From positions 1-49,144 of the forward strand of contig WFTC01000004.1 of assembly GCA_015485665.1 (NCBI GenBank): a stretch of 49,144 nt of DNA, given 5' to 3'. The notes under the pieces are model-generated. The model was not told the origin of the DNA and did not search any database. It saw nothing but the letters and a program-made list of their open reading frames with translations. Each line of letters starts with the position of its first letter. Positions within the stretch are counted from its first letter, which is position 1. The translations under genes and the position numbers were made by a program. Below are positions 3,992 to 26,609 of this stretch, piece by piece. Source of the stretch: Candidatus Altimarinota bacterium (lineage in GTDB: Bacteria; Patescibacteriota; Gracilibacteria; UBA1369; 2-02-FULL-48-14).

Positions 3992-4611
3992 TGACCCACG
4001 CAAGAGTTAATATAACAAGAAAAGGAATTATTAAATTTATTGAACATATTTGGGAAAGTAGCTTGAAAACTTTGCGACATATCCTTAAGACCTTCATTTA
4101 TGGCTTTCATTCCGTCAGTTGCCACAAAAGTACTTTTGCTGGCAGAAGAACTTATTATGTAAGTGCGCAACATGCTTGATGCAAGCAAAAGATATTGATC
4201 CCTGATACTTGCACAATATTCTTGTTTATCAGATGCGGCGTTAAAAGTATCATTTGCTCTGTCTTGTGCAATACTTTCTTCATATATATTTTCAAGACTG
4301 TAAGACACGTAACGATAATAAGTCATAATTTCATCCAAACGATCACTGGCAGGACGTATATCTCTACTTTGAATGTCAAGAAAGTTTCTATAATTTTCAA
4401 TCAGCGGAGCGGCTTCCTCTGCAAGTGTTTGCCCGCAAATATAATTTTTATAAGATTCTGTTTCACTTTCAATATCTTCTACTTCAATATCATCTCCAAC
4501 TTGAGCCTCTGCTTCATGTGAGACAAGCATTATAAAAAAGGCTATAAGTAAAGTTAGAAATATAATTCCAAGTAAAGATGCCAGAGTTTTCATGAAGCGT
4601 GAGTTAATCAT
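3988..4611 (-). CDS. Secreted helical protein, first small gene after the giant gene
   Basis: A 207-residue protein of unknown family. The ATG at 4609-4611 overlaps the giant gene's end by 8 bases. A second ATG at 4591-4593 gives a cleaner signal peptide (MKTLASLLGIIFLTLLIAFF) and is a real alternative. After the hydrophobic segment comes an acidic stretch, then helical sequence with cysteines at YICGQT and EYCASI. The end reads SCYINSCVGQ, with cysteine fourth from the end. It directly follows the 4350-residue gene on the same strand, so the two are almost certainly cotranscribed. No enzymatic motif is seen. A structural or chaperone-like partner of the giant protein is a guess from context. 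Confidence 0.78.
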   Translation of the reverse strand: MINSRFMKTLASLLGIIFLTLLIAFFIMLVSHEAEAQVGDDIEVEDIESETESYKNYICGQTLAEEAAPLIENYRNFLDIQSRDIRPASDRLDEIMTYYRYVSYSLENIYEESIAQDRANDTFNAASDKQEYCASIRDQYLLLASSMLRTYIISSSASKSTFVATDGMKAINEGLKDMSQSFQATFPNMFNKFNNSFSCYINSCVGQ

Positions 4612-7600
4612 CTATTATAAGAGTGTTACTGCTTTCAAATATAGTTCCTTCTTCATTACGTATTATAGCAAATACACTGTCACCCGCTCGTAAATCTGCA
4701 TCCCAATCAATATTGCCAAGGCATGGGCAGGCATTGCAGTTTTCACGAATCGCATAAATTCCAGCTTCAAGCATATATTCATAAGCATCGTCAAAGTCAT
4801 CATTTGAATCTTTTGGATCAGTACCTCTTGCAACTTCACTTCCATCGTCCACTCCACCTGCATCCGAATCCGGATTGTAAGGATCGGTACCGTATAAGCT
4901 TTCTTCATCATAATTAATCAAACCGTCTCCATCACTATCCAGATCAAAACAATTATTTGCTTTGAGTACGCGCACAGACATTTCAACAAAATCATAACGA
5001 GTAAGAACTTGATTTGGATTTGCAGCTTCTTCAGGAGTCACAATAAATAAAGCATCTCCGGCACTGTTGTCACCAAGCAAGTAAGGACCAAGATCCTGTG
5101 CAACTTCCATATAAGGTGCATACCAAGGCTCTCCTTCAGGATTGATATCTTCAATAACTCCCTCGTTTATCAGAGCTTCAATTATTATTTTTACAGCTTC
5201 CGCTCGGTTTATTGTATTTTCAGGTTTGAAAGGAGCTTGTCCATTCTCATCCAATTCCCCAAGATATCCAGTGATTAAATCATTCAAGAATGCTTCCTTT
5301 GTAAAAGGGTAGTACCAAGATGATACATCTAAAATATCATTGAAAACATTTGGTTCTAAATAAGCCTCTTCTCTTGGAACTATACATAAAATGCTCAGCA
5401 CGATCTTGGAAAATTCCGCTCTGTTAATGTTGTTGTCTGGCAAGAAATAGCGTTTACCATCAATTTCACTTCCTTCAATAACACCACGTTCAACCAATTC
5501 TAATATATCCGGATATAGTGGGTCATCCACGGAAATATCTTCAAAATAAATTCGTGTATCTTCACTAAGATCACCACTTTCTCCAAGCAATTTAGATTCA
5601 GAAAGACCCATTTCCGCAGTACTTTGAATTGTAGTTGTTTCAGGTCCTCCAACCCAAATTTCCATTTCCAAAACACCGTAATCATAGAGCTCAATTATCA
5701 TATAGTCATCCAAAGAGTCGGCGTATCGTTTAACAATTTTATAACGTTCAGAATTGTAGATATTTATATTCCCATCTGAAGTTATCTGCATATCCAAACT
5801 TCCATTTGCATTTCTGGCAGTGATCATTTTATCAGTGACCTCATATTGATTGCGATCAACATAGAAGTATGCCGTAAGGCTTTCCTGCAGTCCCAAATTA
5901 AGTCTTTCAAGTTTATTTGGAGATATAACTATGCTGCGCTGACTGTCTGAAACAAAAATGAAACTTCCCAAAACCGTACCGTTGCTCGTATCATAAACGG
6001 ATAAATGAGAAGGCCATCCATTGCCTGCTGCCAAAGCTTCCACATCATAGCCATCCTCTAATATGACAACTTGACGTGTATTTGGATTAAGCTGAGCAAT
6101 TACAAGTCCGTTTTTATCAAATACATTCAAAAGCTCATTATCTTTTAAATCATTAACAAGTAAATTACCCGCTTCATCTGTGAAATAAGGTCCATTGCCT
6201 ATTTCATTCACTGCGCCTTCTCTCTCTCTCACAAGGTAATAAGGCAGTTCATCTGTTGCAGGATCTGAAATACCTGAAACTTGGCTTGTTTTTGCTTCTT
6301 CCAAAATCAAATCGGGTACATAGACATTGACATTGACATATGTACTGGCTTGATTGCCAGCCACATCTGTGATAGTTAAAATGACTTTTTTTGTATCCGT
6401 ATTATCATAAGGACCTATTTCAGTTACCAGACCGCTTGCATCTACATCATTTTCAGAATCACCATCACCGTCACTATCTTTTGAAGCATCAAAATCCCAA
6501 AAGGCAGATACTATCTCTGAATCGCTATCAAAGGAGTTTTCAGCTGAAATTTCTTTTGTTTTGAAAATTGCAACATCTACACTTCCATTTCCAGCATTGA
6601 TAATCGGGTAAGGAGGTGAGGCATCTGCGCAAATTTGTGGATTAAGGAGAATATTATCAGATAAGGTGCCAATGCTGCCATCAGGATAAATACCACGTGT
6701 GCGAGTGTAATATGCACCATCTGATACATCAATAGTTGCACTTGGATTATCCGGATTGAGTAATTTTTCAAGCACAAAATTTTCATCATTATTTAAAGTT
6801 AAGTTTACACCTTCAGAAGTTTTAAGTTTTACCTTGCTTATCCATCCTTGCACTTTGATACCTTCATTTGGGAAAATCTCCATCCCTTCAATTATTTCCT
6901 GATCAGGATCTTTAGTGTTGAAATCAATCCATATTACACGCCCAGAGTCTATTCTCAGCACACGACTGGGATCTCTTCCCAGATTGATTATAATATTTTC
7001 AGGTAGTTCAACATTCATAATTCCACTTTCAGTTTCAATCTCAATTCTGACATTTGTTAAAGTTTGCAAGACTACATCTTTGGAAGTTTCAATTTCACCA
7101 TTTGCACCAATTAACAGACGAGCATAGGCATCATTCAGTTTTGCTCTCCCAAGCACATTATCCACAATTACACGGCTTTTTCTTATTTCCGGTATAAATA
7201 TGCCTCTTCCTTCTACTTCCATTTCAATATCTTCTTCTTCATTCCGCAGTACAACTTTACCTTCTTCCGAGTACAGAGTATTACCTGCCGAATTGCTTTT
7301 ACCATTTTCGTCATATAGTTCAATAGTGTTATTTTCCTCATTTTCAAGTAAAAGACGGCGTTCAATATTTTCTTCGGGAGAACCTATCATTGCGTCCATG
7401 GAATCATAAAGCAATACATCATATGCACTTGCTTCAAGTGAATCATTCATTGCAAAACTGGCGGATTTATAACTGTTCTTTCCAGTTTTAAAGTTCTTTA
7501 CAGCTCCATAGGCAGGCATTAAGTCTTTTACACTGTAAGAAATTGGATCTTTTTTTACATATCGTAAGCGAGGATTTTTACTGTAATTTTCTTTGAAATA

Positions 7601-10600
7601 AATATCTCCGCCCAAAGAATAAAGGACATCTTCATCTCCATCATTATCAAGATCCATGAACAAGATATTAACTTTTTTATTTGATTCTTGAGAGTAAGCG
7701 ACTAATTTTTCATTTACTCCAGACTCTTCATTGTAAATAAATATTCCTTCATTATATGCATAAGCTTCACTACCATATTCCAGAGCTTCAAGACCACCTG
7801 TTTCGTCAAGAGACGCAAGCTTAATATCCATTTCATCTTCTTTCACCAAAGTTTCAGGGTACCAAAGCTCTGAGCTCTGAAGTTCTTTTGAATCTTCGGA
7901 AGCTAATAAGAAACGAGGTTGCAGTGAATTTTCTTGAGCCAAATAACGATTAAAAGCTTCATCATCCAGACCTTTAAGAATTTGTGTGCCTTTATCAATA
8001 TTTTCAACATAAGCTATCAAACTTTCCCTCATGAAAGCCAATCCTGCAAGTGGGGTGTTTTGAATTGTTGCAAGGAATTTAGCATCCAAATCACGGCGAT
8101 TTGTAATGATTTCATCATATTTTTGCAGTAGCGGATCATCTTTAGCCAAGAATTCCTGACCGGCAATAAGCTCCACATTTTTTTCAGGCAGAGTCTTTGC
8201 CCATTCGCTTATACTTTCTTGTATCTTCTCAATTCCGGACTTTAAAGAGAGTAAGTTATTGCGCACAAGAGGATCATCTTTATATGCAAGAGCAGTTTCC
8301 AAAGCAGGATTATTTATATTGGAGTAGTTTAAAGATGCACTTAGATCCGACTGTGTTTTTGCTCCCAAATTGACTGAGTTTTCAATGCCTTCCACTGCTT
8401 CTATTATGGCATTTTTTACATCATCCACACTGCTGTTTATAAAGCTTTGGCTTTGAGTGCCTATATCTTTTACATAGTCATATATGGGTGTGAAATCCAT
8501 TGTAAGGTTCAAATAAGTATTAATTTCAATGCGCTCCAAGAAATCTTTCCGAAAGCCCGGCCATTCATAACTCAAACGAAGATCTGATGCTAAAAGCAAT
8601 CCGCCGGGGCGCTCTGTAAGATCTTCAATTTTTCCTTTGAGTAACATTTCATCAATTGGTATGAAACCGCTGCGAATTAAAGAGATTATTCTTAATATAT
8701 TGCTGCTTATGTTCAGTGCCGCTTGTACATCAGGTAAAATTTCAGGAATTGCGGGAGGAGGTGGCAAACTTGGTAATGTAGGCAAAGTTAAGGCTGGCAG
8801 ATCCGGCAATTCAAAATTCATATCAAAAGTTGGAAGAACCGGTATTTCCACATTGATATTGAAGTCCAAGTCAAGATCTGTGCTTGGTAAAATAAGTCTT
8901 GGCAGACTGGGTAAGCTGATTGGAGAAGGTTTAAATTTTACATCTGGCCATTTTACATCAAGACCGGCTTGAATTTGAGAAACATCAATTACAATATCCG
9001 GTAATTTTGGAAATTCTATAACCGGAAACTCAGGGACGAATACAAATAAATTGAATATCAATTGCAAAGCGCTATAGCGTTGATTGGTGCCCTGATCCGT
9101 TGCCTGCATAAAGTCCAAAGACAGATCAATTAGCAATTTCCAGCCATCAATTATTGATTTCATATCCACAACCCACTGAGCCCAAGCTTCAATGCGCTGA
9201 ATATTATCACTCATATAAGCTGCGGTTCTACTTAGAATCAGATCCAAATAAGAGATAATGCTTTTTGCGTAATATGATTGCAGGCTTCGTATTTCAAGAA
9301 TTTGTTGAGGTATTTCTGCATAGCTCTCCACTGCCGAAATATTTGCGTTTACAGCTCCTATTGTGTCATCTACGGCGGCAACGATTTCCCTGAGAACTTG
9401 CTCTTTTGCAGGATCCAATTTTTCTCCCACACAATTTTCTTTGGCAATCAGTTCACGTTTTCCGGCTTCCCCTTTCAATTCCAGACAAAACAATCCCAAA
9501 AAGCGCTCCAACTCTTCAATGGCATCTTGTGACCAGTCCGTGGCTTCCAAAACAAAAGCAAGCCGCTCTTCTTCACTGACTTGAGGGTAGTAAATTGTTA
9601 CAGGTTCAGGTTTGATATCTATCAATGGCAAAGATTGCGCATAATTCAGCCATTGTTCCAAATTAAAGATTCCACCACTTGTCAATTCTTCCACTTTTTT
9701 GCCATTTTCCGATGATAGAGTAAATTGGCTTTTTAAGCTTGAGCCACTGGGATACTTGAAAGTTATATCAGGCAGATCCAACATTTTGTAAAATTCCAAT
9801 TTTTGTTTTTTCCACCATTCTGTGAATACGGATGGAAAGCCGGGTACTTGTATATTTTTTTGAGAAGCAACTAAAGGTTCGTAATTTGTGAATATATCTG
9901 AGCTTAGAGTGCTTGGATCCGATTCCATTTGAATTTGGGAAGAAGCATCAATGCTGAAGGCTTGATTTATGCCGTCTTCAAATTCCGTAGCGCCACTTAA
10001 ACTTTCAGCAATAAATCTGTTTATTGCATCCGTTATGCCAAGAGCTTGGGTGATTGGCAGAGCAAAGCTGTAACATTTACCGGTAGGATATGCTCCTAAA
10101 CAAAGACCAAGTCCCAGACCCAAAGTGGTTGTTGGAGCCAAGTAGGTACGCATAGTGAAAGAAACATAACAAGATTTTCCAAAACATACGGGAGGTCCGG
10201 CGGGAGGTGCTATACCTGTTATTCCAAAAACCGGTGTGCCGGGATCAAACATCAAAGGAGTTCCCGTTAAAGGATCGTGAAAATAACCAGGCGCCAAAAA
10301 TGCCACACTTCCTGGCATTGCAATACACGATTCATTACAATTAAAAGTTGAAACAATATTTTCTATACTTGTTGAAATTGATTTTGAATTTTCGTCAAAC
10401 TTAGTCAGAGCACTTTCAATATCTTCACCGGCTTCAACGCCGGACTCTTTCCAAGCTTCAAGTGCCAATTCGGGATCTAGTAGCAGCTTACCGTCTTGGA
10501 CCCAGTTGTCTATAGTATCATTCCATCCATCTTCATCAATGTCAGCCTTACTTGAATAGAATTCATCAAGTGTATAAAATCCATCTCCATTCAAATCTTC

Positions 10601-13600
10601 AGCTCCCAAAATCTCAGCTGCCGGATCATAAGTTCCTGATGGTGCGACCGGTAAGCCGCGGTCAGAATTAATTGATTCCACAATATCCGGAATCCCGTTT
10701 TTATTTAAGTCTTCCAAGATTGTATCTTGAGTATAATTTTCTTCCTGATATTCTTCCGCATAACTTTCAGGCGAATACTCTTTTTCAGTATAAATAATAC
10801 GTTTGTAAGAATTAGCTCCAAAACCTAGAAAATTGAAAGAATCATCTTCTTTGCTTTCAGTAATAAAACCGTCTGAGTAATATACCATTAATTGACCGGT
10901 AGTGTTTCCTTCAAGAGATACACCTATATCAGGGTAATCATCATCTCTATAGTCACTTTGTAAGTCTTGTCCGATTAAGACTTCAACTTTAGGTAGGTTC
11001 TTAACTTTCATTAAGTATGAAAGTTGAATGCTCTCACCCGCTGCAACATTTAGAGGACCGAATATCCAAGGTCTACTGCCGCTGCCTTTTGAAATTTCAG
11101 GATTTCCATTGCCGTCATTACAATTAATACAATTCAAATTGTCATTTTGATAGTCATAAATACCACTGACTTGATCTGACAAATACAGATCTTCCACATT
11201 CTCACCACTTTGATTTTTGATAAATATGCTAACCTCCATCATGTCTTCATTGCGCACTTTCCCACCGTTTTTGTCAGTTATATTTTTTCTTATGTAGAAA
11301 TCCTGTTTTACATTTTCATTATTTGCATATTTGAAAGAAAGATTTTTACTTTGAGTTATGATTTCACCTTCGCTGCTTATTCCGTCTATCTCTAAATCTA
11401 TAGCTTCATTCAGACTTAAACTGTCAAGCAAGGTTTGGATTTCAGTATCCATATCCGGTGAAATATTCTCACTGCTGCGTATTGGCAGGAGAGTATCTCC
11501 TTCTTCCATGTTGTTGTAGCGTAAGACGAGATCGGAATATAGGTTTTCGTTATTTGAGCTTGTCAGTCCAAAGTCACGAATAGTGTCCACCGCTCTGATT
11601 TCGCCCTTCACATTCCAAGCCACGTATAACACCATATTTTCATCCACAAGTATCAAGTCCGTACTTCCATCTTGATTAAGGTCCGCAGCCTTGACTTGTA
11701 CAGGCTGAACCGGAATTTCATCCAAAGTAAGGTTTTTGGCTACAAATCCACCACCTATATTCTCAAAAACGTAAAGGCACATTTCATCAGCAAAACAGGA
11801 TTCTTTTGTAACTACAAAGAGATCATCCAGACCGTCTCCGTTATAGTCGCCGCTGTCTACGGATCTTATTCCCGTTTCAATTTGAAGCAAAGTGCCACGA
11901 TTTATCAGCCTGCCTGGACTCTTAACATTTTGCAGTAGTTCAACACGTCCATCTTCATAAGCAAGAAGTACATCTTCTTGATCATCATTATTGAAATCAA
12001 GGGCAATCATATCCAGCAATGTATTTTCATTTGCATATACCATCCTTCCAATATCATCACTAAAACCAAGCTCATTTACTTCACCGGAAGTTGTCAGTTT
12101 AATAGTAGGATCTCCAAGTACGGTTCCTATTTCGGAGTTATAATACATATTTGATTCGCCTACAGAACTTCCGGCGGCATAAAGCAAAAGAGTTTTATTG
12201 TCTTTCTCCCAACCTGTTTCATTTGTTTCTACAGGTTTTTGCTCCGAAGGAACTTCTTGATCTGGATTTATTATGGCAAGCCCCTTTGGGGAAAGAGAGC
12301 TATTTCCGGTGGGAATGGTAATTATTGAGTTTTCAAGCCCATCAGATGCTTTTAAATAAATTCCGCTACCCCAAGATTTCCAATTGCTCAAATTTGCAGT
12401 TGAGTCTAAATACTGCACGTCTTTCTCCCAATTTGTTTCATATTCAATCAATAAAACTTGATTACTTGCTTTGCTAACCACAATACCGATTCCTTGTGAA
12501 TTTTCACTTACCGCCATGCGATAATTAGGATCTTTTATAACAAGCTGACCATTTTCCAGCACTTTCAAAACCACCACTCCATTATCACGTAAAAGATACT
12601 CACCATTTGACTCATCAAGCTCAATATTGGAATTCAAACTCAGAAGCTCTGCCTTTACTTTTGTATTGGAAGGGAAGGCATAAATAACTTCCGCAAGTAG
12701 GGCATCACTTGGATATTCTCTCAGCTGAAAGCGCATGGGCAGATCTGAGGAAGCATCCAAAGCGTTTAAAGTTATAAGACTGCTTGAAGACAGCATAATA
12801 TTTCCATTTGCATCCACTCCGGCAAGTCTTTCTTTTGGAGATGGATCCGATAATAAAGTACTAATGGCTTGGGTTTTTCCATTGAAAGTTAGCCATCCTC
12901 CAATATAGTTTTCTTGAGTTACATCTCCGAAAGGACCACCCAAAACAGATGCATACAACATTTGAGGTTCCATATTTGCGAAATCTTTTCCCGAAATACT
13001 GTAATTTATTTTTCCACCCCAAGTGCCGGCAAGTAGATCACCGGAGCTTGCTATGATATTAATTATTCCGCTAAGAGAATTTGTTTGCACATTAAAGCTC
13101 GCACTTCCTTGATTCAATTTAAAGCGTTTTTTAGATAAGGAGCCAAACTTTTCCGTGGATTTTGTTAAACGAATTTCTCCACTTGTACTGCTGTCCGTTG
13201 TGACTTTATTCCCATATTTGTCAAAAGATTCAATTATAAAGGTGGAAGATTCACCAGCATTTAATTGAGTTGCTCCATTTGCACTGCGGATTCTAAGTTC
13301 ATAAGGGCGAGCAGGTTTAACTTCCAAATTTGTGCTGCCGCCCGTCAAACCGGGACCATCGGCAATTATCTGCACATTGCCGGCTCTATCACCAACTTTA
13401 AATAATGCCTTGCCTTCACCATTGATTAGAGTCAATGAATCTTCTTCAAAACTACCGAAAGCAGGATCACCTATTGAAAGATATATTTCACCGTTGAAGT
13501 TTTTAATTATACGTCTCAAATCATCTACAACTTTTACATCAATGCTTTGTACTGATTCGCTGCCGGCAAACATGAATTTCTCACTTAGCTTAAGTTTAAG

Positions 13601-16600
13601 ATATAAATCCTCAACATTATCAATGGTGAAAATATCTCCATTTTCAATTATTCCTGGCATTGATGCACTTATTTTGGCAGTGCCTGAAGTATCCGAAGAC
13701 AGCACACGAAATTCAATAAAGCCATCGGAAGTTGTAACTTGCATACCTTGCATTGCTGTATTTTCATCATAAAGGTCCAATATTTCCATGCCAGAATCAG
13801 CCTCCAATGTAACAGTATAAAAGGCATTATTTACAAGATTTCCAAAAGCATCTTGCAACTCAACTCGCATAGCTCCGGTACTTTCTCCGCCTGCCGGTAA
13901 AATACTTGACTCACCACTCAGAACCAAAGCACTTAGCTCACCTATTTCTTTTTCCATCCCATTTACATCTTTGTTTTCTATTTCTTCAGAAAGCTCAACT
14001 TCACGATCAATAGACAAGCTTAATTCTTCAAACCAATCGGAAATGGCTTGCATCCATTCCGTGAGCACTACTGGACGATAATCTTCCAGACCACCTATAT
14101 CTTCATAATCCGCTTCAGCTAAAGATTCGGAAGCAGCCAAAGCAGCATCAATGGCATCTTGGCTTCTATATTGCCATTCCAAATCGCCTTCCATTTCAGG
14201 CACATCTCCATTGAAAGCTGCATATAGCTCTGTAGCTGTTCCATTTGCAATAATTGAAACCAGTTCATAACCTTGCCGTGATTTCCCTATTATTGGTTCA
14301 TCAAGACCAACATAACTGTTTAGAACATAGGCATGTTTTTCATCAATATTCATATTCATCCACTTGAGCGCATCTTCAAGTTGATAAGCATTAATATCTT
14401 TTTGCCATTCCAAAACATCTTTTGCATAAGCATTTCCATTTCGCACTGTGCCAACCGATTCCGATAAATCCTGAAACATGGCATTCACATCCTCCATGTT
14501 CTTTGCATTAAATAAATTTATATAATTTAAACTTACTTCATTGCGATCTTCATTACCGTCATAAAAACTGATACGGCGTATTTTATCTATTGGCAGATTT
14601 GGGACGCTAGCAGCTTCAATCTGATCATTTAGCACTGACTTCCAAGGTTGCGTATGTTTATAAACTGATGAAATGCTATAAGCATCTGAATTTTCATAGG
14701 TGAATTTGCCTTTTGTGCCACGTTCATTTGTTGAATCTTTTTCAAAGTAAGCTTTTTTTATGTACACTTTTATCTTCCCAACATTCTCCATTCCACTTCC
14801 ATAACTTGGATTATCAATTTCCACATATTCATTCAGACCTAAATAAAGGTCCATTTGATCTTCGCTGTAATTCTCCATGCCAAGATCTTTGAACATGTCA
14901 TAAACCGTGTAGCGTATCCCATCTTCTTTTTGAAACATATCAAGTTCATGATACTTCTTTTTGAGAGTTTTAGTGCCAACGCCAAGTTCCTCTATTTTAT
15001 TTTGAGCGGCATCAAGAAAATCAGCGTAAGACTCCTCATCATCCGCTTCACCTTGTTTTCTTAACTTACGAATTTTTGCAGCTATCCAGTCATTGAATCC
15101 GCCATTTGCTTCCTTATAATCATAATAAGTGCTCAGTTCACGAAATTCAAAACAAGCTCCGAAACCACGCTCCCATTGTTCTTCTTTTTCATAAATTTCA
15201 ATACGTCCGTCACCGTCTTCATCTTCAGTTAAGCTTGGCATCACTGCGCCAGTATTACTGCGAATAGGTTCCTCAACAAGAGCGCTGTCACAAACATAAG
15301 GCAGGTCTTCTTTAACTGATGCCATATCAGGCACACAGTTTGCAATTGCTCTATAATCTTCCTTTGATTGAATATCTGTTGTGTCTTCATAACTGTATAG
15401 CAAATTGAAATCAACAATCTGACCTCCATCTTCGGAATAAGTACCTCCTGCATTTCCACATTGATAAACTCTGTCTATAGTCCAAAGCTCCTGACCGTTT
15501 ATGAAAATATCTTTAGTATCACCGCTTCCGTTTGTAATTTCTTTAAAAGATTTACTTTGCCAATCTTTTGAGATTGTGTGGTTCACAAATTGAACGCAAG
15601 CATCATCATCCAAGTCAGGTGTACTATTGCTCATATCCTTACAGCCCGCATTCCATTTTTCCTCATCTTCATCAAAGTATTCCACATAAATCTCCATGGC
15701 TGCCACCAAAGGAATTTCTACTTGCAATTCATCTTCAACTAAATTGTTTAGCTTATCTTCAAGTTCACGATTCACTTGATCCAGATATTGCAAAGTATAC
15801 TCATCTTTCTTGGCAATTAAAGAAACGGCACTGTCGTAATCATTTACCGTATTTGCATTTTCATCCAATACTTGCGTGTCCCATCTTCCTGATTGTCCAA
15901 TAAGCTTATTCCATTTCGCTATGGGCTTTTGAAATATATCTGTATATCTGGCTGTAAGTGCTTCAATCAATGCCTTTGATTGAATGTCAGGTAAATTTTC
16001 AAATTGAGACTCAGTTTTGAATCCTTCGGGATCTTCATCAATCAAACCGTCACAATCACCATCGTTATATACACAAGATCCTTGATAGGGAGTAGCATAT
16101 TCATCAGCCCATAATTTTACAGTTGTGGACCCGTCTTCATCACAAAATCCGTCTTCATCATCATCCCATTCCGGATGAGGATTGCCTTCTTCGTCATAAC
16201 AAGAAGGGTGCAGATAATAATCTTTAAAAAATCCGTCTGTAAACTGATCTTCCGCCCAAGCTATTGCTTCTTCATCTTTCGCAAAAGAAAGATTGGCTCC
16301 GTAATTATCATTCATTAACTTTTCCAGTTTATTCCCTATTGTTTGCCAAGGGCGTTTGGTGTCTTGCCAATCATATCCGAAAACAATTTCAATCCCTGTA
16401 GGATAACCGTCTCCGTCATGGTCTGTGGCATAACCGCTGTCATCCACTCCGCACAAACCGGGGCAGCCATCTCCGTCCGGTAATCCGTCTCCATCCAAAT
16501 CCTCACCGCCGGTTACGTCTCCGGGAGGATCTTCATCAATTTTTTTATCTTCAAACCATTCTCCACTACCCAAATTCATTACCCAATCTGAATCATTATT

Positions 16601-17656
16601 GTTGTCGGATATTCCATCTTCATCAATTAATCCGTCTTGATCATTATCAATTTGATAAAAACCGTCACCTATGTCTTCATCAATTAATCCGTCTCCATCA
16701 TCATCCACACCGTTGAGCGCCTCTTCGTCATAAAGCCCGTCTTGGTCATTATCCAGCCCGTCTCCGGCTTCAACTGAAGAATTCATATCTAAAATCAAGG
16801 ATTCCAGCAGCCTGCTTGAATATTGATAAAAAGCAATTTCCTCCCATATTTTCAGAAAACGCTCATAGCTGGCAAAAGAAATGCTGTTTACTGCGGATGA
16901 TTCACCTATAAAATCACCCATAAATACTTTTTTATCAAAACTTGTATACTCTTCATCCCCATTGTAATAGGAATTATTTTTTTCAAAAAACTTTCCAAGC
17001 AAATCGTAACCTGCTTGTCCGCGCAAAGGTGGAATAATCAAGCCTTGCCAAACTTCGCTTTGTACATTTTGAGATTCCGTATTAGGGATAAAATCCAAAC
17101 TGTATTCATCAGGAACATAAGCTGGATCTTCAAAATCTGTGTAAGGAAGCATGGAAAGGAAAGTGTAACCGTTTTTATTCACAACTGGCAAAGGCACTTT
17201 GTCTCCAACAATTACTACTCCACTTAATTGAGTTATATCCTCATCATTAGGGTTGCCTTCAAAATAAAGCCTTTCAAGCATTTTATGAATTTCCATAGTT
17301 CCATCTTCTTCTCCCACCGTAATTATCATACTTTTTGTCCATGGCAATGCAGACTGAACATTCTCCGCATAATTTTTTATCTTATCGGATATTGCTTTAT
17401 TTTCAAAAGTAGCAAATTCACTTTCACCGCTTGTTTGTGCATTCCATGTATCTTCATCAACTAAAATCGCTACCAGTCCATATATTGTATCTACAGACCC
17501 AACATTCCTAATTTCTGCCAGTCCCCCTCCAGGTCTTACTTCGCTAAAATCCACAGCCTCCACTATAGGGTTTATAGGCAAAATAGTGCTTAGCAAACTA
17601 ATCAATACAAGAGCGGCAAAACTTCTTTTAAAGAAGTGGGTGGAGTGAAGTGGCAT
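4604..17656 (-). CDS. Giant multidomain S-layer-type exported protein, 4350 aa
   Basis: One uninterrupted frame for about 480 kDa, starting at ATG 17654-17656. Residues 1-34 are a signal peptide. Visible modules, approximate residues: 45-180, an alpha/beta region with GVVIVGDKVPLP, faintly like peptidase C25 but with no catalytic His/Cys seen; 295-430, 500-545 and 810-825, Asp/Gly-rich DxDxDG calcium-binding repeats (thrombospondin-3/dockerin type); 1255-1580, three Ig-like invasin-type domains; 1876-2002, FG-GAP/VCBS repeats; 2119-2230, DUF11-like; 2315-2385, more DxNxDG loops; 2690-3270, helical with a Pro/Leu-rich stretch at 2880-2970; 3330-3350, another FG-GAP; 3460-3606, a beta-rich FecR-like region; 3690-3783, PKD; 4050-4233, two clear SLH domains and a third weak one; 4238-4290, TSP3 repeats; then CNACPC. 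SLH domains bind cell-wall glycans, so this is probably a wall-anchored adhesin or S-layer scaffold. It heads the five-gene unit. Confidence 0.88.
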   Translation of the reverse strand: MPLHSTHFFKRSFAALVLISLLSTILPINPIVEAVDFSEVRPGGGLAEIRNVGSVDTIYGLVAILVDEDTWNAQTSGESEFATFENKAISDKIKNYAENVQSALPWTKSMIITVGEEDGTMEIHKMLERLYFEGNPNDEDITQLSGVVIVGDKVPLPVVNKNGYTFLSMLPYTDFEDPAYVPDEYSLDFIPNTESQNVQSEVWQGLIIPPLRGQAGYDLLGKFFEKNNSYYNGDEEYTSFDKKVFMGDFIGESSAVNSISFASYERFLKIWEEIAFYQYSSRLLESLILDMNSSVEAGDGLDNDQDGLYDEEALNGVDDDGDGLIDEDIGDGFYQIDNDQDGLIDEDGISDNNNDSDWVMNLGSGEWFEDKKIDEDPPGDVTGGEDLDGDGLPDGDGCPGLCGVDDSGYATDHDGDGYPTGIEIVFGYDWQDTKRPWQTIGNKLEKLMNDNYGANLSFAKDEEAIAWAEDQFTDGFFKDYYLHPSCYDEEGNPHPEWDDDEDGFCDEDGSTTVKLWADEYATPYQGSCVYNDGDCDGLIDEDPEGFKTESQFENLPDIQSKALIEALTARYTDIFQKPIAKWNKLIGQSGRWDTQVLDENANTVNDYDSAVSLIAKKDEYTLQYLDQVNRELEDKLNNLVEDELQVEIPLVAAMEIYVEYFDEDEEKWNAGCKDMSNSTPDLDDDACVQFVNHTISKDWQSKSFKEITNGSGDTKDIFINGQELWTIDRVYQCGNAGGTYSEDGGQIVDFNLLYSYEDTTDIQSKEDYRAIANCVPDMASVKEDLPYVCDSALVEEPIRSNTGAVMPSLTEDEDGDGRIEIYEKEEQWERGFGACFEFRELSTYYDYKEANGGFNDWIAAKIRKLRKQGEADDEESYADFLDAAQNKIEELGVGTKTLKKKYHELDMFQKEDGIRYTVYDMFKDLGMENYSEDQMDLYLGLNEYVEIDNPSYGSGMENVGKIKVYIKKAYFEKDSTNERGTKGKFTYENSDAYSISSVYKHTQPWKSVLNDQIEAASVPNLPIDKIRRISFYDGNEDRNEVSLNYINLFNAKNMEDVNAMFQDLSESVGTVRNGNAYAKDVLEWQKDINAYQLEDALKWMNMNIDEKHAYVLNSYVGLDEPIIGKSRQGYELVSIIANGTATELYAAFNGDVPEMEGDLEWQYRSQDAIDAALAASESLAEADYEDIGGLEDYRPVVLTEWMQAISDWFEELSLSIDREVELSEEIENKDVNGMEKEIGELSALVLSGESSILPAGGESTGAMRVELQDAFGNLVNNAFYTVTLEADSGMEILDLYDENTAMQGMQVTTSDGFIEFRVLSSDTSGTAKISASMPGIIENGDIFTIDNVEDLYLKLKLSEKFMFAGSESVQSIDVKVVDDLRRIIKNFNGEIYLSIGDPAFGSFEEDSLTLINGEGKALFKVGDRAGNVQIIADGPGLTGGSTNLEVKPARPYELRIRSANGATQLNAGESSTFIIESFDKYGNKVTTDSSTSGEIRLTKSTEKFGSLSKKRFKLNQGSASFNVQTNSLSGIINIIASSGDLLAGTWGGKINYSISGKDFANMEPQMLYASVLGGPFGDVTQENYIGGWLTFNGKTQAISTLLSDPSPKERLAGVDANGNIMLSSSSLITLNALDASSDLPMRFQLREYPSDALLAEVIYAFPSNTKVKAELLSLNSNIELDESNGEYLLRDNGVVVLKVLENGQLVIKDPNYRMAVSENSQGIGIVVSKASNQVLLIEYETNWEKDVQYLDSTANLSNWKSWGSGIYLKASDGLENSIITIPTGNSSLSPKGLAIINPDQEVPSEQKPVETNETGWEKDNKTLLLYAAGSSVGESNMYYNSEIGTVLGDPTIKLTTSGEVNELGFSDDIGRMVYANENTLLDMIALDFNNDDQEDVLLAYEDGRVELLQNVKSPGRLINRGTLLQIETGIRSVDSGDYNGDGLDDLFVVTKESCFADEMCLYVFENIGGGFVAKNLTLDEIPVQPVQVKAADLNQDGSTDLILVDENMVLYVAWNVKGEIRAVDTIRDFGLTSSNNENLYSDLVLRYNNMEEGDTLLPIRSSENISPDMDTEIQTLLDSLSLNEAIDLEIDGISSEGEIITQSKNLSFKYANNENVKQDFYIRKNITDKNGGKVRNEDMMEVSIFIKNQSGENVEDLYLSDQVSGIYDYQNDNLNCINCNDGNGNPEISKGSGSRPWIFGPLNVAAGESIQLSYLMKVKNLPKVEVLIGQDLQSDYRDDDYPDIGVSLEGNTTGQLMVYYSDGFITESKEDDSFNFLGFGANSYKRIIYTEKEYSPESYAEEYQEENYTQDTILEDLNKNGIPDIVESINSDRGLPVAPSGTYDPAAEILGAEDLNGDGFYTLDEFYSSKADIDEDGWNDTIDNWVQDGKLLLDPELALEAWKESGVEAGEDIESALTKFDENSKSISTSIENIVSTFNCNESCIAMPGSVAFLAPGYFHDPLTGTPLMFDPGTPVFGITGIAPPAGPPVCFGKSCYVSFTMRTYLAPTTTLGLGLGLCLGAYPTGKCYSFALPITQALGITDAINRFIAESLSGATEFEDGINQAFSIDASSQIQMESDPSTLSSDIFTNYEPLVASQKNIQVPGFPSVFTEWWKKQKLEFYKMLDLPDITFKYPSGSSLKSQFTLSSENGKKVEELTSGGIFNLEQWLNYAQSLPLIDIKPEPVTIYYPQVSEEERLAFVLEATDWSQDAIEELERFLGLFCLELKGEAGKRELIAKENCVGEKLDPAKEQVLREIVAAVDDTIGAVNANISAVESYAEIPQQILEIRSLQSYYAKSIISYLDLILSRTAAYMSDNIQRIEAWAQWVVDMKSIIDGWKLLIDLSLDFMQATDQGTNQRYSALQLIFNLFVFVPEFPVIEFPKLPDIVIDVSQIQAGLDVKWPDVKFKPSPISLPSLPRLILPSTDLDLDFNINVEIPVLPTFDMNFELPDLPALTLPTLPSLPPPPAIPEILPDVQAALNISSNILRIISLIRSGFIPIDEMLLKGKIEDLTERPGGLLLASDLRLSYEWPGFRKDFLERIEINTYLNLTMDFTPIYDYVKDIGTQSQSFINSSVDDVKNAIIEAVEGIENSVNLGAKTQSDLSASLNYSNINNPALETALAYKDDPLVRNNLLSLKSGIEKIQESISEWAKTLPEKNVELIAGQEFLAKDDPLLQKYDEIITNRRDLDAKFLATIQNTPLAGLAFMRESLIAYVENIDKGTQILKGLDDEAFNRYLAQENSLQPRFLLASEDSKELQSSELWYPETLVKEDEMDIKLASLDETGGLEALEYGSEAYAYNEGIFIYNEESGVNEKLVAYSQESNKKVNILFMDLDNDGDEDVLYSLGGDIYFKENYSKNPRLRYVKKDPISYSVKDLMPAYGAVKNFKTGKNSYKSASFAMNDSLEASAYDVLLYDSMDAMIGSPEENIERRLLLENEENNTIELYDENGKSNSAGNTLYSEEGKVVLRNEEEDIEMEVEGRGIFIPEIRKSRVIVDNVLGRAKLNDAYARLLIGANGEIETSKDVVLQTLTNVRIEIETESGIMNVELPENIIINLGRDPSRVLRIDSGRVIWIDFNTKDPDQEIIEGMEIFPNEGIKVQGWISKVKLKTSEGVNLTLNNDENFVLEKLLNPDNPSATIDVSDGAYYTRTRGIYPDGSIGTLSDNILLNPQICADASPPYPIINAGNGSVDVAIFKTKEISAENSFDSDSEIVSAFWDFDASKDSDGDGDSENDVDASGLVTEIGPYDNTDTKKVILTITDVAGNQASTYVNVNVYVPDLILEEAKTSQVSGISDPATDELPYYLVREREGAVNEIGNGPYFTDEAGNLLVNDLKDNELLNVFDKNGLVIAQLNPNTRQVVILEDGYDVEALAAGNGWPSHLSVYDTSNGTVLGSFIFVSDSQRSIVISPNKLERLNLGLQESLTAYFYVDRNQYEVTDKMITARNANGSLDMQITSDGNINIYNSERYKIVKRYADSLDDYMIIELYDYGVLEMEIWVGGPETTTIQSTAEMGLSESKLLGESGDLSEDTRIYFEDISVDDPLYPDILELVERGVIEGSEIDGKRYFLPDNNINRAEFSKIVLSILCIVPREEAYLEPNVFNDILDVSSWYYPFTKEAFLNDLITGYLGELDENGQAPFKPENTINRAEAVKIIIEALINEGVIEDINPEGEPWYAPYMEVAQDLGPYLLGDNSAGDALFIVTPEEAANPNQVLTRYDFVEMSVRVLKANNCFDLDSDGDGLINYDEESLYGTDPYNPDSDAGGVDDGSEVARGTDPKDSNDDFDDAYEYMLEAGIYAIRENCNACPCLGNIDWDADLRAGDSVFAIIRNEEGTIFESSNTLIIDD

Positions 17657-22773: not shown

Positions 22774-23237
22774 TTAGGTGAAAAGTGATTCCGGTATTTT
22801 TGAAATAAATAGTACTTCTTCATCCCACTTGGAAGGATTAAGACCTTTAGGTGCGAAAATAACGCATCCATCACAAGGGGCATATAGAGGACCTTGATCC
22901 CCATTAGCTAATTTTTGCCCTTTATGAATTTTTTCAAAAGGTTGAAAGATGCGCTCTAGGCTGTAACTTTGATTTGGGAAAATAAGGCTATCTATAATTT
23001 CATAGTTTTTAATTGCAGGTAGATCTGATCTGGGGCCATCAATCATATCAAGATTAATAAGCAAGCGCTCACAGCACTTTTTAGCAATAATTTCGCTTTT
23101 AGGGTTCTCATAGCTACAAGTTCTTCAATCCAAGGGGCTACTCTATTTTCAAAACGAGATTGTTCATCACGCCCTGCTGGGTACATGTAGGCTAGATTAG
23201 TATCGGGCCTATAAAATTGATCTAAAGTAGTTTCCAT
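22774..23237 (-). pseudogene. Decayed aspartoacylase/succinylglutamate desuccinylase-like gene
   Basis: Two frames together resemble parts of the AstE/AspA zinc-hydrolase family (M14-like). The upstream part (from ATG 23237) has FYRPDTNLAYMYPAGRDEQ followed by ENRVAPWIEEL, matching the family's D-x-N-R region and the helix after it. The reading then shifts. The other frame gives ENPKSEIIAKKC, matching the family's E-x-P-x-S helix, and continues through IDGPRSDLP and a C-terminal beta domain (LYAPCDGCVIFAPKG) to the stop. The HGNE zinc motif, the middle DLH segment and probably about 100 codons are missing, so activity is unlikely. A stop lies just upstream of the first ATG. The assignment is from motif memory. 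A sequencing error could explain the frameshift but not the missing parts. Confidence 0.6.
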
Positions 23238-23553: not shown

Positions 23554-23967
23554 TTATTGAAGTTCAACGGAAGCACCTGCTCCTTCAAGAGTGGATTTTG
23601 CTTCTTCGGCTTTAGCTTTGTCAACGTTTTCCAAGACAGTACCGTTGTTGTCAACAACTTCTTTTGCCTCTTTAAGTCCAAGTCCGGTTATTTCTCTCAC
23701 CGCTTTAATAACGGCGATTTTTTGGGCACCGGCTCCAGTCAATACTACATTGAAGCTGGATTTTTCTTCTCCACCACCGGCATCTCCACCACCGGCAGCG
23801 GCTCCGCCAACAGCAGCAACGGCAACAGGAGCAGCAGAAATTCCGTACTCTTGTTCCATAAATTTAACTACATTATTGACTTGTATGATATTGAGCTTTT
23901 CAAGGGCGTCTATAACAGCCTTTTCTTCTTTTGAAAGCTCAATCTTTTCCACATTTTCTTCAGACAT
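23554..23967 (-). CDS. rplL: Ribosomal protein L7/L12 (bL12)
   Basis: A 137-residue stalk protein that recruits translation factors to the ribosome. The N-terminal dimerisation region (about 1-50, ending [12 protein letters not shown]) leads into an Ala/Gly hinge (about 52-68). Then comes the C-terminal factor-binding domain with [35 protein letters not shown]. This is a few residues longer than typical because the hinge is very glycine-rich. It lies 27 bases downstream of rplJ and is followed by a terminator. Two long plus-strand frames overlapping it are shadows. Confidence 0.97.
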
Positions 23968-23994: not shown

Positions 23995-24582
23995 TTAAGC
24001 ATTTTCTGCCGAAGTCTTATCTTCGGCGGCGGTAGCTTTTTCCGCTTGATTAGCCTCATTGTCGGGCATTTGTTCAGCATAAGCTTCAAGTGCGCGTGCA
24101 AAAGAGGATAGTCCTCCATTCAACATTCCTTGGAATCCTCGCAAAGGTCCTTGCATCATGGACATGAATTTTGCAAGCAATTCTTCTTTGGATGGGAGTT
24201 CGGCTAATTCTTTCATCTCTATGATGGATAAGATTTTTCCTTCCATAACTCCACCCATAAGTTTCACTACGGGCACTTTTTTTGAGCTGGCCTTAAGAAG
24301 TTTAGGTCCGGACACAACATCTTCAAAAGAAAATGCGGCACCAACCGTGCCTTCCATGATTTCATCCGGAAGTTCAATGCCGTTTTCCTTGGCTGCAAGT
24401 TTGAAAAGGCTACGTTTTGCAACTTTAAACTTTACTCCTTGACTGCGCATTTCATTACGCATATCGCTTATTTCGGATACACTCATTCCTGCGTACTGAC
24501 CGAATGTAACGGATTTTGCATCCTTGAATAGCTCAACCAGCTCTGCAAGGATTTCTTCCTTCTTTTTTCTGGAAACTGCCAT
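23995..24582 (-). CDS. rplJ: Ribosomal protein L10 (uL10)
   Basis: A 195-residue protein that anchors L7/L12 dimers to the large subunit. Early residues MAVSRKKKEEILAELVELF and the segment VTFGQYAGMSVSEISDMRNE are family hallmarks. The C-terminal part carries the helix that binds L12 dimers, followed by an Ala/Glu-rich tail (from about residue 172) longer than in Escherichia coli. The gene is preceded by a long structured leader, so autoregulation by free L10 (or the L10-L12 complex) is expected. It is cotranscribed with rplL. Confidence 0.96.
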   Translation of the reverse strand: MAVSRKKKEEILAELVELFKDAKSVTFGQYAGMSVSEISDMRNEMRSQGVKFKVAKRSLFKLAAKENGIELPDEIMEGTVGAAFSFEDVVSGPKLLKASSKKVPVVKLMGGVMEGKILSIIEMKELAELPSKEELLAKFMSMMQGPLRGFQGMLNGGLSSFARALEAYAEQMPDNEANQAEKATAAEDKTSAENA

Positions 24583-24911: not shown

Positions 24912-25595
24912 ATGATATTCATTCAAGAACTAAAAGAGCTCATTGCGGAGAAGCACCTTCTTGGACATCCGTTCTATCAAGCTTGGACGGCAGGAACGCT
25001 CCCCATTGAAGTGATGCAGAAATATGCCGAACAGTACTACCATCTTGAGAAAAACTTCCCAAATTTTCTGAGCTCCATGCTAATGACAGCAGATTCAAAA
25101 AAGGCGCGAGAGATTATTTTGAATAACTTTCTTGATGAAGCGGAAGGAAAGGACAACCACAGAGAACTCTGGATAAAGTTTGGAGAAGGAATCGGTGCAA
25201 CTCGTGCAGGCATGAAAAACTCTAATGCTCTTCAACAAACTGCTGACGCAATAGAGACCTTCCAAACTCTTTCTGAAAAATCTTTTCTTTTGGGGGCTGC
25301 GGCTTTGGCGGCCTATGAAACTCAAGTGCCTGAAGTGGCTAAAGAAAAGATTGATGGTCTGATTAGAAACTACGGCATAGACAGTGAAGAAACCATGCGT
25401 TTCTTCAGAGTGCACAAAGAAGTGGATGTTGCTCATGCAGATGCATGGTGGGAAATTATTGAAAAATACTGTGATGATGAAGCCATTAAAAAAGAAGTAC
25501 GTGAATCTGTGATAAAAGGGAGAGATGCACTTTGGAACTTTCTTACAGGTATTATGGAGGCTTATTATCCTGAAGCATGCGATTGCGAAATCTAA
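24912..25595 (+). CDS. CADD-like diiron oxygenase (TenA/PqqC fold), putative para-aminobenzoate synthase
   Basis: A 227-residue all-helical protein of the TenA/PqqC superfamily, closest in motif spacing to chlamydial CADD. CADD makes para-aminobenzoate for folate by destroying one of its own tyrosines. Probable metal ligands are E76, H83, E136, H168, D172 and H175, whose spacings match the CADD ligands as I remember them (E81, H88, E142, H174, D178, H181). The sacrificed tyrosine (CADD Y27) corresponds to Y22, Y43 to Y38, Y141 to Y135, and the amine-donor K152 to K146; CADD Y170 is a Phe here (F164). The C-terminus has EACDCEI. The gene has its own promoter and heads a plus-strand run with miaA and recJ, so context gives no pathway. 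TenA or PqqC activity is less likely because of the metal site. Confidence 0.8.
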   Translation: MIFIQELKELIAEKHLLGHPFYQAWTAGTLPIEVMQKYAEQYYHLEKNFPNFLSSMLMTADSKKAREIILNNFLDEAEGKDNHRELWIKFGEGIGATRAGMKNSNALQQTADAIETFQTLSEKSFLLGAAALAAYETQVPEVAKEKIDGLIRNYGIDSEETMRFFRVHKEVDVAHADAWWEIIEKYCDDEAIKKEVRESVIKGRDALWNFLTGIMEAYYPEACDCEI

Positions 25596-25661: not shown

Positions 25662-26609
25662 ATGATGAATGACTTGATGCATCACATTTCTTTGTTTCTC
25701 AAAGAGGCTGAAAAGGCAGGTGAGACACCGCTTTTGGTGGTTTGTGGACCTACAGCATCAGGCAAGACTAAACTGAGCCTCGTATTAGCGGAGCATTTTA
25801 ATGGAGAAATTATCTCAGCAGATTCAATGCAGATTTATAGAAAGATGAATATTGGAAGCGATAAGATTGATTCTACAACCTCAAAACGAGTTAAGCATCA
25901 TATGATTGATATTATTGACCCATGTCAACGTTTTACAATGGCGGATTTTCAACGTGAAGCTAAGCGAGCGATCACGGACATCGCTAAGCGCAATAAATTA
26001 GCTATTTTGACAGGAGGAACAGGTTTGTATATCAATGCGGTCATAGAAAATTACCAGCTTCCAAAGGCCCCTCCGGATCCAAAAATAAGAGAAGAATTGC
26101 AGGCTATTTATGAAAAACACGGAAAGGATTATCTTTATAATATGCTTCTTAATCTTGATCCAAAGGCTGCAGTAAAGATACACCCGAACAATGTAAGATA
26201 TGTTGCACGTGCATTGGAAATCGTTCTCCAGACAAAAGCGCCAAAAAAAGCACGGCAAGGAAAGCGCCTTTATGATGTCTTTAAAATTGCTGTGGAATGG
26301 GACAGAGAGGTTTTATATGAGCGCATTAATAAACGTGTAGATGAAATGATTGAAAGAGGGCTGATCAGTGAAATCAAATCTTTGATTGCAGAGGGTTACA
26401 CAGAATCCTGCCAAGCCATGCAAGGACTAGGTTATAAAGAGTATTTCCCATATTTAAGGGGTGAGAAATCTTTGGAGGAATGTAAAGAGGAACACAAAAA
26501 GGCTACACGAAATTTTGCCAAACGTCAGATAACGTGGTTTGGCAGGGAAGAAGATATTTATTGGATTCAGCCTGACGAATTCTTTGACCTCATCAAACAT
26601 GAATCCTAA
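25662..26609 (+). CDS. miaA: tRNA dimethylallyltransferase MiaA
   Basis: A 315-residue enzyme that adds a dimethylallyl group to A37 of tRNAs reading UNN codons. Visible motifs: P-loop GPTASGKT (29-36), DSMQIY (54-59), GGTGLYINAV near residue 120, and the late region QAMQGLGYKEYFPYLRG followed by KRQITWFGRE. All are characteristic of MiaA, and the length is normal. A second Met directly follows the first, so the start is uncertain by one codon. The 3' end overlaps the recJ start by 11 bases. No MiaB is in the window. Confidence 0.96.
   Translation: MMNDLMHHISLFLKEAEKAGETPLLVVCGPTASGKTKLSLVLAEHFNGEIISADSMQIYRKMNIGSDKIDSTTSKRVKHHMIDIIDPCQRFTMADFQREAKRAITDIAKRNKLAILTGGTGLYINAVIENYQLPKAPPDPKIREELQAIYEKHGKDYLYNMLLNLDPKAAVKIHPNNVRYVARALEIVLQTKAPKKARQGKRLYDVFKIAVEWDREVLYERINKRVDEMIERGLISEIKSLIAEGYTESCQAMQGLGYKEYFPYLRGEKSLEECKEEHKKATRNFAKRQITWFGREEDIYWIQPDEFFDLIKHES

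Follow-up and report, generated by a model that had tools for sequence, protein, structure and literature searches.

Where does a bacterium with a genome of 860 kb and genes for its own folate pathway obtain its para-aminobenzoate (pABA)? This question is raised by an open reading frame (24912..25595, + strand) in the DNA analysed here, a stretch of 49,144 nucleotides (the window) that makes up one entire contig of the patescibacterial genome G000 (23 contigs, completeness given as 100%, contamination 0.04%). An earlier note had read this frame as a CADD-like, self-sacrificing pABA synthase outside Chlamydiae. With the corrections given below this reading is supported, the activity being judged from that of related enzymes. 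Very probably, the product of the gene is a self-sacrificing pABA synthase that feeds the folate pathway of its own host and replaces PabA/PabB. The data presented here show the family, the residues, the fold prediction, the folate genes, the absence of PF00425, that pabB has been lost beside folP and that homologues cluster with folate genes. Patescibacteria are usually seen as cofactor-poor, with a partial folate capacity (PMC11974145). If the reading is true, one-shot cofactor synthesis would reach well beyond intracellular pathogens, and a patescibacterial lineage would have an apparently complete folate route whose pABA comes from an expendable protein, not from chorismate.

Family, residues and predicted chemistry of the protein

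The frame runs from an ATG at 24912 to a TAA at 25593-25595 and encodes 227 aa, as the note had described it. A profile search with TIGR04305 (fol_rel_CADD) gave 226.2 bits at a curated cut-off of 200 (E = 3e-67). Searches with phmmer against solved pABA synthases gave E-values of 8e-46 for 9pj4, 4e-36 for 1rcw and 2e-35 for 8va9, with 35-40% identical aa overall. The values for the family model, 9pj4 and 1rcw exclude a chance match. The predicted structure (mean pLDDT 95) is a heme-oxygenase-like helical bundle with CtCADD as the nearest solved structure (8va9/1rcw; TM 0.90/0.95, the latter target-normalised, at 1.2-1.3 A), which ranked ahead of PqqC (TM 0.89/0.80), TenA, UndA and BesC in the fold search. 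The gene thus belongs to the CADD/PabS family, for whose proteins the NCBI family model would already give the name 'CADD family putative folate metabolism protein'.

A residue map was built by counting along the phmmer alignments, with 9pj4 numbered minus 21 to fit the published NePabS numbers. In the order window protein/CADD (CT610)/9pj4, the sacrificed tyrosine is Y22/Y27/Y25, its partner Y38/Y43/Y41 and the lysine amino donor K146/K152/K159; two further aromatic columns are Y135/Y141/F148 and F164/Y170/F177. The ligand columns are E76/E81/E88, H83/H88/H95, E136/E142/E149, H168/H174/H181, D172/D178/D185 and H175/H181/H188. All 3 His and 3 carboxylates are kept in the window protein, in agreement with the claim of the note on six metal ligands. 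The alignment with CADD that it had proposed matched Y22 with Y27 and K146 with K152, and bore out its partner Tyr Y38 (CADD Y43) and its Phe at CADD Y170 (F164) as well. Across 12 homologues there is no variation at Y22, Y38 and K146, nor at the ligand positions E76, H83, E136, H168 and H175. On the + strand, the codon of the predicted aromatic donor Tyr22 lies at 24975..24977, that of the predicted amino donor Lys146 at 25347..25349 and that of Phe164 at 25401..25403. A site of three His and three carboxylates is the dimetal site described for these enzymes (PMC11965152).

Compared with CADD of Chlamydia trachomatis (1rcw, 8va9, 8vag), the window protein has the same fold (TM 0.95), the six ligands and the equivalents of Y27, Y43, Y141 and K152 at about 34% identity, but differs in the Phe at the Y170 position; its host is a patescibacterium in which the gene adjoins miaA and the folate genes lie elsewhere in the genome. 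Work on NePabS (NE1434), the enzyme of Nitrosomonas europaea, addressed Y25, Y41, F148, K159 and F177 (PMC11965152). Since these columns of 9pj4 match the published numbering, 9pj4 is probably NePabS, and its identity to the window protein is 40% over 218 columns with all essential residues in common.

Like the window protein, NePabS has F at the CADD Y170 position, a metal-selectivity position (PMC11965152). The two differ at F148 of NePabS, where the window protein has Y135 and thus resembles the NePabS variant F148Y; this variant, with Tyr there and Phe at 177, showed roughly the same activity whether it held Fe/Fe or Mn/Fe (PMC11965152). The Y135/F164 pair, natural in the window protein and its clade, equals this laboratory combination, and the use of Fe/Fe or Mn/Fe is therefore predicted. 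The variants of that one paper thus point to a cambialistic enzyme, and the natural pair offers a ready test of what determines Fe/Fe versus Mn/Fe use.

In CtCADD and NePabS, a reduced dimetal centre and O2 give rise to a radical at the sacrificed Tyr, whose side chain is released and oxidised; the amine comes from a Lys nitrogen, and the carboxylate of pABA holds two O2-derived oxygens (PMC11965152, PMC13108848). Every residue needed for this mechanism is present in the window protein, and we infer its chemistry, single turnover and metal use from these characterised relatives. A dimetal centre on E76, H83, E136, H168, D172 and H175 would react with O2, and the oxidising equivalent would reach Y22 by way of aromatic residues, of which Y38 and Y135 are the probable ones. 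The side chain of Y22 would be cut off, its oxidation would form the carboxylate with oxygen from O2, and K146 would provide the nitrogen for its amination; one polypeptide would give at most one pABA. FolP would couple this pABA to the pterin from FolE, PTPS-I/III and FolK, and FolC and DHFR would complete tetrahydrofolate. The CADD route would make folate synthesis O2-dependent.

Folate and chorismate genes of the host

G000 was examined by family searches and in chosen stretches. The search for a folate pathway, proposed by the note as a check, found folP, folC, folA (DHFR), folE, folK and PTPS-I/III; thyA is also present and adjacent to folA. The PTPS gene (L053:10162-10602, contig C19) lies between folP and folK and encodes the motif CEHLHGH. 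CExxHGH is the signature of PTPS-I/III hybrids able to serve folate (PMC5041015), and the G000 enzyme probably stands in for FolB.

A profile search for PF00425 (chorismate-binding; PabB, TrpE) revealed no candidate in G000. The expectation that pabABC would be missing therefore held for pabB but not for pabC: on the same contig, an aminotransferase-IV (PabC-like) domain is fused in frame to FolP (dihydropteroate synthase; L053:8687-10165). This domain covers the entire Aminotran_4 profile at 129 bits and keeps the putative PLP lysine. The folate pathway is present in this genome and chorismate-dependent pABA synthesis is incomplete. If PabB is truly absent, nothing should be available for the PabC-like domain to act on; the domain may be a remnant that the fusion has preserved or may use another substrate, or PabB may have been missed. 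It is very improbable that the domain cooperates with CADD in a hybrid pABA route of a kind not described before, in which it would use a CADD-derived intermediate or hand pABA over to FolP.

An apparently complete shikimate operon is found in the 860-kb genome (L075:1084-7667, contig C11) in the order aroA, aroK, aroQ, aroE, DAHP synthase, aroB, aroC and prephenate dehydratase, where aroA, aroK, aroQ and aroE were named by reading their translations. Because it includes chorismate synthase, chorismate is probably made, at least for phenylalanine. The claim that the organism makes pABA without chorismate would accordingly apply to the CADD route alone, as the organism itself has the operon with chorismate synthase and prephenate dehydratase. 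No enzyme converting chorismate to aminodeoxychorismate was found in G000. A lack of chorismate does not explain the exchange of pabB here, since pabB was lost while chorismate is apparently still made.

Probable replacement of pabB among relatives and competing explanations

The gene is flanked upstream by the divergent rplJ (ribosomal protein L10, identified from its translation; 23995..24582, - strand), with rplL beside it (23554-23967), and downstream by miaA (25662..26609, + strand), which begins 66 bp after the CADD stop. CADD scored above the cut-off in 3/89 genomes of the order. These are three of the six genomes of the window's family (G000, G287, G188), and the gene always lies between rplJ and miaA. 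Their CADD proteins form one group in the tree (support 92/93), and the window protein is the longest branch in its clade.

The folP locus of this family differs between genomes with and without CADD. In G147, which has no CADD, the order is NDK-pabB-pabC-folP-PTPS-folK. In the CADD-containing G188 it is NDK-folP-PTPS-folK, with both pabB and pabC gone from this place, and no aminotransferase-IV match was found anywhere in the genome. In G000 an unbroken stretch reads NDK, an unrelated ORF on the opposite strand, the pabC::folP fusion, PTPS and folK. G289, also without CADD, carries pabA-pabB-pabC elsewhere in its genome. Over the 89 genomes of the order, PF00425 was found in 0/3 genomes with CADD versus 66/86 without (Fisher p = 0.016, a test that ignores kinship); with well-assembled genomes only, and equally ignoring kinship, p was 0.09. 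We claim no strict statistical co-occurrence; the picture of pabB being lost where CADD is present is consistent and comprises few independent events. G288 was considered as a counter-example without CADD and pabB and was rejected: its pabC is cut off where the contig stops, which makes this genome uninformative. As folP occurs with neither PF00425 nor CADD in five genomes of the same class but other families (G004, G027, G092, G243, G252), missing pabB alone proves no substitute.

The nearest named homologues came from Candidatus Magasanikbacteria (L014-L016) and from two contigs that bear the labels Verrucomicrobia (L017) and Woesearchaeota (L018). Those of L014-L017 share 50-54% of their residues with the window protein and have its Y135/F164 pair; the Magasanikbacteria proteins together with those of G188 and G287 reach 52-59% identity and keep every key residue, including Y at position 135 and F at position 164. 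In contrast to the site between rplJ and miaA in G000, G188 and G287, the Magasanikbacteria genes lie within folate clusters: pdxS-pdxT-CADD-folP-folB-folK in L014, CADD-folP-(folB-like)-folK-pdxS-pdxT in L015 (folB and pdx genes assigned by reading), and CADD between folP and a FolC-like ligase in L016. In L017, CADD is followed by folP-folK.

These data bear on other explanations of the locus. It is improbable that the CADD homologue is auxiliary or decaying while PabA/PabB/PabC still make pABA, PabB having been missed by the assembly or the profile. Such a situation would fit the persistence of a PabC-like domain with its putative PLP lysine in the FolP fusion, the aro operon leading to chorismate and the long branch of the window protein, and a gap between the 23 contigs could in principle hide PabB. 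However, no PF00425 candidate exists in a genome whose completeness is given as 100%, the place filled by pabB beside folP in G147 is taken by an unrelated ORF in a contiguous stretch of G000, and G188 has CADD without pabB and pabC at this place and without an aminotransferase-IV match genome-wide. The window protein also has its catalytic residues intact. We find it quite unlikely that the protein is a different dimetal oxidase of the heme-oxygenase-like type (PqqC-, BesC-, UndA- or TenA-like) whose substrate is a small molecule and whose likeness to CADD is one of fold only. The broad Pfam models TENA/THI-4/PQQC and Haem_oxygenas_2 do match the protein, and the BesC and PqqC models match weakly, but at 59 bits with a cut-off of 500 (BesC, NF042919) and 51 bits with a cut-off of 240 (PqqC, TIGR02111), whereas TIGR04305 passes. 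The CADD-specific Y22, Y38 and K146 are invariant, the target-normalised TM is 0.95 for CtCADD versus 0.80 for PqqC, and homologues adjoin folP, folB and folK; a PqqC, BesC or TenA identity was rejected on the profile scores and the fold.

That the contig or the gene stems from contamination by Chlamydiae or Verrucomicrobia is scarcely credible, even though contigs under the names Verrucomicrobia and Woesearchaeota contain relatives of the protein. On both sides of CADD, the genes rplL, rplJ, miaA and recJ keep the order that they have in G188, at 55-70% identity, and on the ground of this synteny we reject contamination; the common CADD site in G188 and G287, the grouping of the three proteins of the family and the low contamination of the genome agree with this.

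Occurrence outside Chlamydiae and further observations

A self-sacrificing pABA synthase outside Chlamydiae, as the gene was read above, agrees with the note for this organism, but such an occurrence is not new: it is known from Nitrosomonas europaea (PMC11965152) and from degraded loci of Rickettsia (PMC5615194). The Rickettsia gene frC (fol_rel_CADD) falls under the same model, TIGR04305, and likewise occurs in small genomes without PabABC; in contrast to the intact window gene with its folate pathway, it is reported to be degraded in almost all Rickettsia, which have no complete folate pathway (PMC5615194). Among the freely accessible papers searched, none was found on CADD/PabS in Patescibacteria or Magasanikbacteria. 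As far as found, the patescibacterial occurrence of CADD/PabS together with the replacement of pab genes is new.

Divergent CADD-like proteins were observed in four genomes of the same class as G000 but of another family (L061:10099-10764 in G078, L057:9440-10129 in G260, L059:2356-2997 in G177 and L063:9039-9704 in G268). At 25-27% identity and 126-143 bits they stay under the TIGR04305 cut-off. They keep the Tyr, Tyr and Lys and most ligand columns, have Glu for the Asp ligand and are 4 residues shorter in the segment from the first Glu to the His. All four genomes contain folP, folE and DHFR. No aminotransferase-IV gene was found in any of the four, and PF00425 is absent in two and represented only by TrpE in one; this PF00425 gene, in G078, was rejected as PabB because it reads as TrpE within a trp operon. 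Judged by their sequences, these proteins are possibly an unannotated subgroup of pABA synthases.

Elsewhere in the window, two overlapping short ORFs in different frames (23043-23237 and 22774-23064, within 22774-23237, - strand) could be one frameshifted gene. At 4604-17656 (- strand), near type IV pilus genes, lies the gene for a predicted surface protein of 4350 aa in which an S-layer homology domain is combined with an FG-GAP-like repeat.
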